Positions 3,738-37,123 of a stretch of DNA of 48,335 bases are shown here, in pieces. The DNA is from Candidatus Rokuibacteriota bacterium. Lineage in GTDB: Bacteria; Methylomirabilota; Methylomirabilia; Rokubacteriales; CSP1-6. The notes under the pieces are model-generated. The model saw nothing but the letters and a program-made list of their open reading frames with translations, did not search any database and was not told the origin of the DNA. Location: NCBI GenBank assembly GCA_016188005.1, contig JACPIQ010000136.1, positions 1 through 48,335 of the forward strand, given 5' to 3'. The translations under genes were made by a program, and so were the position numbers. Positions within the stretch are counted from its first letter, which is position 1; each line of letters starts with the position of its first letter.

Positions 3738-5186
3738 TCAGCGCCGACCCCGGGCGTGCCCGTTCGCGTGGGCGGCGCCGTTGCCGTTGCCGTTCCCGTT
3801 CCGGCTGGCAGCCGCGCGACGCGGCGCGAGATGGACCGGCATCTCGTCCAGACGCACCAGGTCCTCGGTCCGCTCGCCCCTGCGGAGCACATGCGTCTCC
3901 CTCCCGGACACGACGACGACGGGAGGCCGCGGGTAGATGAACTGCATGGAGTTGGACACCGTGTAGGCGCCGGCATTGCGGAAGAGGAGCATGCTGCCCC
4001 GACTCACCGGCGGCAGCGACACATCCCGCCGCAGCACGTCGATCTGCATGCAGAGGGGGCCGACGATGTCCACACGCGCGGAGTCTCCCTCGGCCTCGCG
4101 CCCGGTGACCACGTCGTGCCTGAAGTAGTAGGCCGTGGGCAGGAGGTTCACGCCCCCGTCGACCACGACGAGCGTGCGCCCGTCGGGCGTCTTCTTGACC
4201 GCCACGACGCTCACCAGGAGGGAGACGGCGTCGTCCACGATGGAGCGCCCCGGCTCCAGGATGAGCAGCGGGCGGCGGGGCAGCCGCTTGACTCCGGCCT
4301 TGAGCGGCCCCGCGATGGCCTCGGCGTACTCGGCGTAGCTCGGGGTCGTCATCTCCCCGGGCAGGAGCTGGCTGAGGATGGTGTTCCGCGAGGCGTAGCC
4401 GCCGCCCAGGTCCAGGTACTCGATGTCACCGAGGCGCTGCGCCTCGACGGTCATGGCCAGATCCAGGAGCCCGGTGATGGCGCGCTTGTAGATCTCCACG
4501 TTGGCGAGATAGGTCCCGGCGTGCAGGTGGAAGCCCGCGAGCCGCAGGAGCTTCGAGCCGTGGATCCTGCGGCACACCTCCAGCGCCTGGCCCGACTCCA
4601 TGTTGAAGCCGAACTTGTCCCACGGCGGATCGTTGAGGCGCATGTTCACCCGGATCCCGATCTTGACCGGACGCCTGAGCTGCCGCGAGACCTCCTCGAG
4701 GTCGGCCAGCTCCTCGAGGTTGTCCACGTTGACCCGGACGCCCAGCCGGGTCGCCTCGAGGAGGTGATCGAAGGGCTTGTAAGGGCCGTTGTAGACGATC
4801 TGGGACCCGGGCATGCCCAGCGCCCGGGCACGCTCCAGCTCGAACCCGGAGACCACCTCGGCCCATGCTCCTTCCTGGTGGAGGGTGGCGCAGATCCCGG
4901 ACACGTAGTTGGTCTTGTACGAGTAGGCCACCACCGTCTCGGGATAGCGGGAGCGGAAGGCCGAGAGGAACCCGCGCAGGTTCTTCCGGAGCGTGGCCTC
5001 GGAGACGACGTAGAGCGGGGAGCCGTACTTGCTCTTGAGGCTCTGGGCGCTCACGCCGTCCACCGCCTCACCGACCGCGATGGGAGGGGCGCCCGGACCG
5101 CCGCCGCCCCACTGCTTAGTGAGCGAGCCCAGCTCGCGCCGCATGATCAGAGGCCGCTCGTAGAGTTCCCGCGTGGCTGGTGTCAT
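3738..5186 (-). CDS. Fold-type III PLP-dependent decarboxylase (LysA/ornithine decarboxylase-like)
   Basis: A 482-residue alanine-racemase-fold decarboxylase that would remove the alpha-carboxyl of a basic or diamino acid. Visible signatures are the PLP lysine K91 in YSYKTN, H222 in HLHAGTY, the glycine-rich phosphate loop GGGYA (261-265), EPGRS (311-315) and the C-x3-D motif in GPLCMQID (C379, D383). The barrel and C-terminal sheet are complete. The last about 20 residues are an Asn-Gly/Ala-His-rich tail (NGNGNGNG) not typical of the family. The ATG has AGGAG about 9 nt upstream and overlaps the preceding ATP-grasp gene by 71 nt; a second ATG at codon 15 is possible. The substrate cannot be read from sequence. 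Its place between ATP-grasp genes and the transporter-sirtuin fusion argues against ordinary lysine biosynthesis and for a dedicated amine-forming step. Confidence 0.85.
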   Translation of the reverse strand: MTPATRELYERPLIMRRELGSLTKQWGGGGPGAPPIAVGEAVDGVSAQSLKSKYGSPLYVVSEATLRKNLRGFLSAFRSRYPETVVAYSYKTNYVSGICATLHQEGAWAEVVSGFELERARALGMPGSQIVYNGPYKPFDHLLEATRLGVRVNVDNLEELADLEEVSRQLRRPVKIGIRVNMRLNDPPWDKFGFNMESGQALEVCRRIHGSKLLRLAGFHLHAGTYLANVEIYKRAITGLLDLAMTVEAQRLGDIEYLDLGGGYASRNTILSQLLPGEMTTPSYAEYAEAIAGPLKAGVKRLPRRPLLILEPGRSIVDDAVSLLVSVVAVKKTPDGRTLVVVDGGVNLLPTAYYFRHDVVTGREAEGDSARVDIVGPLCMQIDVLRRDVSLPPVSRGSMLLFRNAGAYTVSNSMQFIYPRPPVVVVSGRETHVLRRGERTEDLVRLDEMPVHLAPRRAAASRNGNGNGNGAAHANGHARGRR

Positions 5187-34656: not shown

Positions 34657-35265
34657 ATGAGCGCTGCGCTGAGCTTCGCCCTCGCCGGCCTGCTCCTCCT
34701 CGCTCCCCTCGCCGTGTGCGCCCAGGACAGGCCCATCCAGCCCGTGGAGCCGGCTCCGGCGGCCCCTGCCGCCACCGCATCGTCTGGCCCGGCCATCGCG
34801 AAGGGGTCGAGCGTCGGGCTCGAGTACACGCTCACGGACGAGGCCGGGGCCGTGATCGACTCCAACAGGGGCCGGGCTCCGCTGCGCTACACTCACGGCG
34901 CTCGGCAGCTCATCCCGGGGCTCGAGCGGGAGCTGGTGGGGCTGCACGCGGGTGACGAGAAGAAGGTCGTGGTGAAGCCCGAGGACGCCTATGGCGCCGT
35001 GAACCCGGCGGCGCAGACCGAGGTGCCCAAGACCGCCATCCCGGAGGCCGCGCGCAAGGTCGGTGCCCGGCTCCTGGCCCGCAACCATGCCGGTGAGGCC
35101 CGGCCGGTGGTGGTCAAGGAGATCCGGCAGGAGACGATCCTCCTGGACCTCAACCACCCCCTCGCCGGCAAGACACTCTTCTTCGACGTGAAGGTGCTCG
35201 ACGTCGCCGCGCCGGCGGCACACCCACCGCAGAAGGACGCCCCGCCGGCGCCGTCCGAGAAGTAG
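34657..35265 (+). CDS. Exported SlyD-like FKBP peptidyl-prolyl isomerase
   Basis: A 202-residue protein with a signal peptide (ALSFALAGLLLLAPLAVCAQ), a Pro/Ala linker, and an FKBP domain with YTLTDEAGAVIDSN, PLRYTHGARQLIPGLERELVG and the SlyD-type insert-in-flap region DAYGAVNPAAQTEVPK. It ends in a Pro-rich tail. It would catalyse prolyl isomerisation or act as a chaperone in the periplasm. SlyD itself is cytoplasmic and has a His-rich tail that is absent here. Confidence 0.9.
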   Translation: MSAALSFALAGLLLLAPLAVCAQDRPIQPVEPAPAAPAATASSGPAIAKGSSVGLEYTLTDEAGAVIDSNRGRAPLRYTHGARQLIPGLERELVGLHAGDEKKVVVKPEDAYGAVNPAAQTEVPKTAIPEAARKVGARLLARNHAGEARPVVVKEIRQETILLDLNHPLAGKTLFFDVKVLDVAAPAAHPPQKDAPPAPSEK

Positions 35266-35364: not shown

Positions 35365-36234
35365 CTAGGCCAGGCCGCGCAGGGCGTCCACGAAGTCGCG
35401 CGAGAGGGTTCCCGAGTAGACTTCCTCGACGGGCCCCTGCAGCCGGATCGACCAGTCGGGTCGCACGTCCACTGACAGCGCGCCCCCTGGCATGCGCACC
35501 GTGACGAGGCCGTGGTCGCAGAGGCCGTTTCTCACCGCGGCGCAGGCCACGGCGCTCGACGAGGAGCCCGAGGCCAGCGTCCACCCGGCGCCCCGCTCCC
35601 AGATGAGGATCTCCACCTCGGCGCGCGAGGCCACGCGGGCGAACTGCACGTTCGTCCGGTTCGGGAAGGCGGGATGGGTCTCGATGAGCGGGCCGAGGCG
35701 GCGCGTCTCCGCCTCGTCGAGGCGGTCGGTGAAGACCACGCAGTGCGGGTTGCCCACCGACACCGCGGTGACGCTGAGCGTCCGGTCGGCTACCTGGAGC
35801 GGCTCGCGCACCACCTCCCGTCGCGGCCCGCTCATGGGGATTTCCGGGGCGACGAAGGTGCAATGCCCCATCTCGACGGTCACCTCGTTGACCCGCCCGC
35901 CCGCCACGTGGCACCGGCACTCGACGCGGCCGCCCTTCGTGTCCACGGTGAAGACCGACCGGCCGGCGCGCCCATGCTCGTGGAGGAACTTGGCGAAGAT
36001 GCGAAGGCCGTTGCCCGACTTCTCGGCCTCGCTGCCGTCGGGGTTGAAGATCCGCAGCCCGAAGTCCGCGCCGGCCCAAGCGGGAACGAGGAGGAGAATC
36101 CCGTCCGAGCCCACGCCCCAGTTCCGGTCGCAGATGCGCGCCACCTGCCGCGGCGTGGGCGGGGCCGGCAGGTCTGCTGAGTCCATGACAATGTAGTCGT
36201 TGCCCAGCCCGTGCCCCTTGACGAATGGGATCAT
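35365..36234 (-). CDS. dapF: Diaminopimelate epimerase-family protein with both catalytic Cys replaced by Ser
   Basis: A 289-residue DapF-fold protein: FVKGHGLGNDYIV, SDGILLLVP, FNPDGSEAEKSGNGLRIF (64-80), SVGNPHCVVF, NRTNVQFARV, ERGAGWTLASGSSSSAVA (213-230). DapF interconverts LL- and meso-diaminopimelate with two cysteines acting as acid and base. Here the first (Cys73 position) is Ser73 and the second (ACGTG motif) is Ser222. The rest of the active site is preserved. It may still be an epimerase of a serine-bearing subfamily or have another substrate. The ATG overlaps the stop of a short upstream frame (ATGA). Last gene of the citrate synthase-GT2 run. Confidence 0.85.
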   Translation of the reverse strand: MIPFVKGHGLGNDYIVMDSADLPAPPTPRQVARICDRNWGVGSDGILLLVPAWAGADFGLRIFNPDGSEAEKSGNGLRIFAKFLHEHGRAGRSVFTVDTKGGRVECRCHVAGGRVNEVTVEMGHCTFVAPEIPMSGPRREVVREPLQVADRTLSVTAVSVGNPHCVVFTDRLDEAETRRLGPLIETHPAFPNRTNVQFARVASRAEVEILIWERGAGWTLASGSSSSAVACAAVRNGLCDHGLVTVRMPGGALSVDVRPDWSIRLQGPVEEVYSGTLSRDFVDALRGLA

Positions 36235-36329
36235 GGTCGGCGCGGCTCCTGCGTGGCGGGGGCGCTCCCGGGAGAGACGCCCGGCACCCGTGAGTGGGCG
36301 TGAAGGGGACGATCCGCGGTCAGGCTCAT
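36231..36329 (-). CDS. Candidate 32-residue coupling ORF between GT2 and dapF
   Basis: A 32-codon frame starting MSLTADRPLHAHSRVPGV. Its ATG overlaps the GT2 stop as ATGA (36326-36329), and its TGA overlaps the dapF start as ATGA (36231-36234). GGGAGGCC lies about 10 nt before its ATG. Coupling at both ends is unlikely by chance, so it is probably translated, perhaps only to carry ribosomes to dapF. The peptide shows no recognisable domain. Confidence 0.45.
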   Translation of the reverse strand: MSLTADRPLHAHSRVPGVSPGSAPATQEPRRP

Positions 36330-37123
36330 CCTCTCGGCCTCCCGGCGGGCGAGAGGAAGTCTGCGATGCGCTCGGGCACGCGGCGCACGTCGGTGGGGAG
36401 GCGGTGGCGCCACTTGCGGGCGAAGCGCGCCAGGGCCTCGCGCCGCTCGGACAGGTCGCGGTCTGGCGGGCGCGGCGCCTCGGCGCCGGTGCGGGTGCCG
36501 CCCCCACGGTGGACGAAGGGCGCCCGGACGACGACGCAGCGGTGGCCGGCCTCGCGCACCGCGAAGGAGAGGTCCCGATCGTAGCCGTGGAAGAAGCCGT
36601 AGCCCTCGTCGAAGCCTCCAACGGCAGCGAGTAGCGGGCGCGCGATGAAGAGGCAGACACCGTCCACGGCCGCGACCTCGGTCACCGGCGCACGGAGATT
36701 CCCGGTCCCCTCGAGGCTCGAGACGATGGTGCGGCCCACGTAGCGTCCGTCCCGCCTGAGGCGACGGGCGCCGTAGAGGCCCGCCAGCCCGGCCGCGGAC
36801 TGCCCGTCCACCGCGGTCCGGAGCCGGTCGAGCCAGCGCGGATCTCGCATCTCGGTGTCGTTGTGGAGGAAGCAGAGGTGGTCCGACTCGGAGAGTTGCG
36901 CGCCCTGGTTGAGGGCCCGGATCAGCCCGACGTTCTCGGCGTTCCGGCGGTAGCGGAGTGGCCGGCCGGCCGGCCACTCGCGGAAGTACGCCTCCGTGCC
37001 ATCGGTCGAGCCGTTGTCCACCACGCAGAGGTCGAAGGGGAGCGTCGTCGTCACGAGGCTGTCGAGGCAGGCCCTCGTCAGCGGCAACTGGTTATGGACC
37101 ACCAGGACGACGCTGATCGTCAT
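36326..37123 (-). CDS. GT2-family glycosyltransferase
   Basis: A 265-residue GT-A fold glycosyltransferase: ISVVLVVHNQLPLTRACLDS, LCVVDNGSTDGTEAYF (nucleotide-binding Asp), NVGLIRALNQGAQ, LCFLHNDTEMRDPRWL (D-x-E in place of the common D-x-D), GFDEGYGFFHGYDRDLSFAV. It lacks membrane segments and resembles rhamnosyl- or glycosyl-transferases of surface polysaccharides. The acceptor is unknown. It lies 33 nt downstream of the citrate synthase gene on the same strand. Confidence 0.9.
   Translation of the reverse strand: MTISVVLVVHNQLPLTRACLDSLVTTTLPFDLCVVDNGSTDGTEAYFREWPAGRPLRYRRNAENVGLIRALNQGAQLSESDHLCFLHNDTEMRDPRWLDRLRTAVDGQSAAGLAGLYGARRLRRDGRYVGRTIVSSLEGTGNLRAPVTEVAAVDGVCLFIARPLLAAVGGFDEGYGFFHGYDRDLSFAVREAGHRCVVVRAPFVHRGGGTRTGAEAPRPPDRDLSERREALARFARKWRHRLPTDVRRVPERIADFLSPAGRPRG

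Follow-up and report, generated by a model that had tools for sequence, protein, structure and literature searches.

LL-diaminopimelate epimerase (DapF) is the textbook example of an enzyme in which a thiol/thiolate pair abstracts an alpha proton of very low acidity; covalent inhibitors are directed at the two cysteines concerned. In the window, which is the whole analysed stretch of 48,335 nucleotides from a Candidatus Rokuibacteriota bacterium, a dapF-like gene (Table 1) encodes serine at both of these positions, and the question is what such a protein could do for its host. It is probably the working LL-diaminopimelate epimerase of the organism, acting with no catalytic cysteine. We infer this activity from the sequence and its conservation, the single clade, the sole copy in the genome, the apparent replacement of a Cys/Cys gene, the kept diaminopimelate (DAP) contacts and the predicted fold.

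Serine at both catalytic positions

The reading frame, coordinates and strand given in the original prediction were confirmed, as were its motifs DGSEAEKSGNG (with Ser73) and GAGWTLASGS (with Ser222). Residues 73 and 222 aligned with the two cysteines of solved DapFs, so serine does occupy both catalytic places. The protein scored 237.7 bits on the DapF equivalog of NCBIfam (TIGR00652, cut-off 114.65) and matched Pfam PF01678 with an E-value of 2e-51; PF01678 alone was matched, with no hit to the PhzF-like and proline racemase Pfam families at E 0.001. Its closest solved relatives were DapF structures, with 35-40% identity. The scores on NF038284 (bifunctional DapF/glutamate racemase, 61.2 bits against a cut-off of 350) and NF033599 (histidine racemase CntK, 12.3 bits against 300) stayed below threshold.

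Every tested mark of DapF was found except the two cysteines that define the mechanism, Ser73 and Ser222 standing in their places, and for this reason we regard the window protein as a variant, rather than a canonical example, of DapF. Because the TIGR00652 cut-off is passed, naming pipelines already label the Ser/Ser form DapF, and this automatic label would conceal a mechanistic split. Sequencing error was ruled out: both codons lie two base changes away from either Cys codon, so that a single-base error per site could not account for the serines, and all close relatives read had the same residues.

Table 1. Position of the dapF-like gene, its signature codons and its neighbours in the window
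Feature	Position	Strand	Remark
dapF-like gene, Ser/Ser subfamily	35365..36234	-	289 aa; sole DapF homologue of the genome
Codon Ser73 (TCG)	36016..36018	-	First catalytic Cys position, by alignment to solved DapFs
Codon Ser222 (TCG)	35569..35571	-	Second catalytic Cys position, by alignment to solved DapFs
Codon Lys72 (AAG)	36019..36021	-	Same residue throughout the main Ser/Ser clade; classical Cys/Cys DapFs have Met, Gln or Asn
Codon Ser225	35560..35562	-	Same residue throughout the main Ser/Ser clade; Cys/Cys DapFs have Gly
Glycosyltransferase family 2 (GT2) gene, upstream of dapF	36326..37123	-	Has a homologue close to dapF in 26 of 29 loci of the Rokubacteria group
FKBP-type peptidyl-prolyl isomerase, convergent neighbour	34657..35265	+	Near dapF in 4 of 29 loci

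Distribution and phylogeny of the Ser/Ser form

Judged from the alignments and the tree, the Ser/Ser proteins form a clade with strong support, whose members come from at least nine named bacterial phyla or candidate divisions. A serine subfamily had been raised as a possibility, and such a subfamily was indeed encountered in the genomes of the phylum, in a wider profile-based scan and in samples of Bacteroidota and Nitrospirota. Within the phylum to which the window belongs, 83 of 95 genomes contained a match to the protein, those without a retrieved locus being classed by score only. Motifs were read at 71 loci of the phylum, two of which are the window itself. The strong homologues (L003-L064, families f1-f7) were all Ser/Ser. 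The divergent ones (families f8-f10, about 38% identical) and an extra copy in one genome (G007) had Cys at the first motif, and those among them that were read by alignment column proved to be Cys/Cys; the motif at loci L020 and L031 was also read by column.

The profile-based scan of named genomes gave at least 588 stretches, at least 569 of them relatives; 80 were kept and all 80 were Ser/Ser, a set that shows spread and not frequency, as the scan patterns included the serine motif. By record title these belonged to Bacteroidota (22), Nitrospirota (15), Thermodesulfobacteriota (Dadabacteria, 13), Rokuibacteriota (10), Aquificota (5), Bacillota (4), Armatimonadota (3), Methylomirabilota (2), candidate division FCPU426 (2), Dictyoglomota (1) and others (3). 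Cultured bacteria such as Maribellus, Tangfeifania and Nitrospira moscoviensis are among those with a Ser/Ser DapF. Two unbiased samples were ranked by score, with the class assigned by score only where no locus was retrieved: the Ser/Ser level was reached in 2 of 296 Bacteroidota genomes, both read as Ser/Ser, and a place of at least 240 bits was present in 49 of 148 Nitrospirota genomes (50 places), 16 of the 50 being read and all Ser/Ser. The next place in Bacteroidota (174 bits) was Cys/Cys, and so was the one found in Nitrospirota at 212 bits, after a gap in score.

When 250 sequences of at least 200 residues, duplicate copies of one gene included, were read by alignment column, 194 were Ser/Ser, 56 were Cys/Cys and none was mixed Cys/Ser, which rules out a chance pairing of the two substitutions. 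A tree of 88 dereplicated sequences was built with residues 73 and 222 masked, and one branch split off all Ser/Ser rows with support of 100/99, the position of two plasmid rows (L263, L264) being unsure owing to long branches. Between the window gene and five close relatives dN/dS was about 0.13-0.19; decay of the gene is ruled out by these values, and on this measure the Ser/Ser form is under purifying selection.

The original prediction had seen in the paired serines selection for different chemistry and not decay. Selection is borne out by the clade support, the dN/dS values and the absence of a mixed form, and different chemistry is likely as far as the acid-base groups are concerned. A new reaction is not favoured, since the gene context and the kept DAP contacts point to the conversion of LL-DAP to meso-DAP. 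Among 146 distinct Ser/Ser sequences, the codon for Ser73 was AGY in 77 and TCN in 69, and that for Ser222 was TCN in all 146.

Sole copy and pathway genes

Another Cys/Cys DapF, or a DapL, had been suggested as something to look for in the same genome. No second DapF was found in this genome (98.1% complete), which leaves the Ser/Ser gene as its sole DapF, and DapL was present with 607.7 bits (cut-off 593.25). DapL yields LL-DAP and is no substitute for DapF. Both dapA and dapB were identified over their own cut-offs, together with a MurE having the DNPR motif, a mark of the DAP-adding enzyme. Ddh, which would bypass DapF, was over its cut-off in none of 94 genomes of the phylum (best 25 bits), and a bypass of this kind was rejected there.

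In the 31 Ser/Ser genomes from other groups, one DapF was present in 28 and two in 3, and Ddh exceeded its cut-off in one. A second DapF beside the Ser/Ser one was observed in three Nitrospirota and three other genomes; five of these six second copies were read, and all were Cys/Cys.

Three LysA-like proteins were revealed in the organism's own genome, one of them adjoining dapA-dapB-dapL. They scored 226-253 bits on TIGR01048, under the cut-off of 297.9, so that the need for meso-DAP is less certain here than in relatives. In several related genera, as in this genome (G000:C27), the sole type of LysA-like protein is one below the LysA cut-off, and its gene adjoins dapA-dapB-dapL in both cases examined (L096, L249); most of the phylum has a LysA of more than 500 bits. 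The window itself carries at 3738-5186 (minus strand) a PLP-dependent decarboxylase of the LysA kind, with 248 bits on TIGR01048, below the cut-off, and 203 bits as N-citrylornithine decarboxylase FslC, for which the cut-off is 500.

Gene order and apparent replacement of the Cys/Cys gene

Two Cys/Cys genomes of the phylum (G022 and G029) had the order lysA-dapF-dapA-dapB-FAH-like gene-dapL, in which the gene between dapB and dapL is one that we take to be FAH-like, and in G020 lysA-dapF was located at a contig end. The dap segments (7.5-15 kb) of eight Ser/Ser genomes held dapA, dapB, dapL and lysA or a LysA-like gene, while a DapF-like ORF was found in none of the eight, and the Ser/Ser gene was on a different contig from the dap segment in these genomes. 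Because the Cys/Cys DapFs of the phylum are not the closest kin of its Ser/Ser ones in the tree, it looks, from the sequences, as if the Ser/Ser gene replaced a Cys/Cys gene and did not arise by mutation in place.

DapF is as a rule Cys/Cys in Bacteroidota; where the Ser/Ser gene occurs there, it was within about 1.6 kb of a dapL and/or lysA homologue in 18 of 22 loci, the neighbour being taken as DapL when at least 67% identical to that of locus L122. The DapL of L122 scored 637 bits on TIGR03542, and its LysA homologue 298.7 bits, just above the cut-off. The GT2 gene is a constant neighbour in the window's own group and tells little.

Active site and predicted fold

The predicted model (58 sequences) had a mean pLDDT of 96.5 and a pTM of 0.92, and its best structural match was the ligand-bound Anabaena DapF 9mro (Z 39.2, rmsd 1.7 over 273 residues). 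PhzF and proline racemase/hydroxyproline epimerase have the same fold, with lower similarity to the model (Z 24-28). PhzF is not known to use catalytic cysteines.

In Anabaena DapF, DAP is contacted at its reacting end by Asn13, Gly76, Asn77, Gly225 and Thr226, and at its far end by Asn66, Asn164, Asn197, Glu215 and Arg216 (PMC12039745). Mapped on the contacts listed there, the equivalents N12, G74, N75, N162, N195, E213, R214, G223 and S/T224 were present in all 39 dereplicated members of the main clade, and N64 in 38 of them; the window protein has every one of them, with Ser at 224.

Beside the two cysteines, the clearest changes relative to 11 classical Cys/Cys DapFs were Pro65, Lys72, Ile79, Gln197 and Ser225, accompanied by three milder ones. 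These five stand for A/S/Q/N, M/Q/N, C (11 of 11), E/G and G of the classical enzymes, respectively, and they are subfamily-specific like the serines, a point that goes beyond the original prediction. Lys72 was invariant in all 39 main-clade members and adjoins Ser73 in sequence, whereas in Anabaena DapF no basic residue lies within 4 A of either sulfur (PMC12039745). Ser225 occupies the place of Anabaena Gly227, the backbone NH of which is at hydrogen-bonding distance of the second catalytic sulfur (PMC12039745).

The window protein is like DapF (TIGR00652, PF01678; Anabaena 9MRO and A. thaliana 3EJX) in fold, DAP contacts, pathway context and equivalog cut-off, and differs in the serines for both catalytic cysteines and in K72, P65, I79, Q197 and S225. 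The C73S and C217S forms of H. influenzae DapF (2q9h, 2q9j) have the same fold and a serine at one catalytic position, but they are engineered single mutants without the natural accompanying changes of the Ser/Ser subfamily. The bifunctional DapF/glutamate racemase of Chlamydia trachomatis (NF038284), which shares the DapF fold and occurs where MurI is missing (PMC5885031), keeps both cysteines, unlike the window protein.

Proposed mechanism and alternative functions

The protein would fold and bind DAP as DapF does, and would close over the substrate. Ser73 and Ser222, each placed at the N-terminus of one of the two central helices, would then flank the alpha carbon, and the proton could be removed and returned by their hydroxyls or relayed through them. 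The most likely helpers, by conjecture, would be the invariant Lys72 beside Ser73 and Ser225 beside Ser222. We infer both which groups act as acid and base and what Lys72 and Ser225 do.

The wider proposal is that the amino-acid epimerases of a large natural clade do without any catalytic thiol, with Ser73 and Ser222, aided by Lys72 and Ser225, deprotonating and reprotonating the alpha carbon, and that this form was acquired once and spread over many phyla, in which it replaced the Cys enzyme; we give it about even chances. If it holds, the accepted mechanism with two cysteines may have an alternative, and a widespread, apparently essential Cys-free form would mean that the DapF fold is capable of the same chemistry in another way. 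Such a form would be expected to evade cysteine-directed inhibitors and oxidation, and could serve as a natural system for testing what the thiols are for.

Several points count against the epimerase reading. We know of no Ser/Ser protein that has been assayed, and the acidity of a Ser hydroxyl is far below that of a thiol. Mutants of relatives point the same way: engineered C67S and C209S forms of the related histidine racemase HisR lose most activity (PMC11602996), and Cys-to-Ala mutants of Chlamydia DapF gave no complementation of D-Glu auxotrophy (PMC5885031). Compared with such mutants, the natural proteins have at least five more fixed changes, as a re-tuned active site would require. 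Also counted against it are the scores of the organism's own LysA-like proteins, the six genomes with a second DapF and the plasmid relatives in clusters that do not look like lysine clusters. No description of a natural Ser/Ser DapF was found in the open-licence PMC literature that was searched.

The loss of both groups needed by the accepted mechanism, like the crippled Cys-to-Ser mutants of relatives (PMC11602996), would also suit a protein that binds DAP without epimerizing it, as a regulatory or scaffold pseudoenzyme or in another reaction of LL-DAP, with meso-DAP made by an unrelated, unseen enzyme. This is unlikely: a second, unseen epimerase would be required in each Ser/Ser-only lineage, the Cys/Cys gene is gone from the operon where the Ser/Ser gene occurs, and all substrate contacts are retained.

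The main or added duty could instead be D-glutamate or another amino acid, the protein being a DapF-fold epimerase or racemase for which DAP is either a second substrate or not a substrate at all. MurI (TIGR00067) gave no match in the organism's own genome, the one genome searched, compared with matches in 10 of 14 control genomes. Chlamydia is known to have a bifunctional DapF/glutamate racemase, and the authors state that most PVC bacteria have DapF and are without MurI (PMC5885031). Retention of the DAP-specific distal contacts N64, N162, N195, E213 and R214, the low score on the Chlamydia-type model (about 61 against 350) and the adjacency of the Bacteroidota Ser/Ser gene to dapL/lysA all argue against such a duty, which we hold to be decidedly unlikely. 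Because the own genome shows no MurI match and Chlamydia uses its DapF for D-glutamate (PMC5885031), the protein may have a double role in DAP and D-glutamate.

Very improbable is a cofactor-dependent or single-base reaction (for example Lys72 with pyridoxal phosphate) in which the serines are structural, for although Lys72 is invariant in the 39 main-clade members and glutamate racemization by Chlamydia DapF is reported as PLP dependent (PMC5885031), that enzyme retains both cysteines, and in the two plasmid relatives position 72 is Arg or Met.

Plasmid-borne and early-branching relatives

Ser/Ser relatives of a second kind, with Met or Arg at position 72 and Gly at 225, were identified on plasmids of Streptomyces sp. 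NBC_01216 (L264/L286) and Agrobacterium vitis (L263/L287). They lie in a conserved cluster with an iron-containing redox enzyme, a 2OG-Fe dioxygenase, a molybdopterin oxidoreductase, an aldo/keto reductase and an EamA transporter, which probably represents a small-molecule pathway and not lysine synthesis.

A Ser/Ser form that branches early and combines Lys72 with Gly225 was present in two Nitrospirota genomes (L266 and L268, in G426 and G436), and likely also in a third, G445. Each of the three genomes also has another DapF copy, which proved to be Cys/Cys in G426 and G445, where it was read. This form may record the order in which the changes of the subfamily arose.
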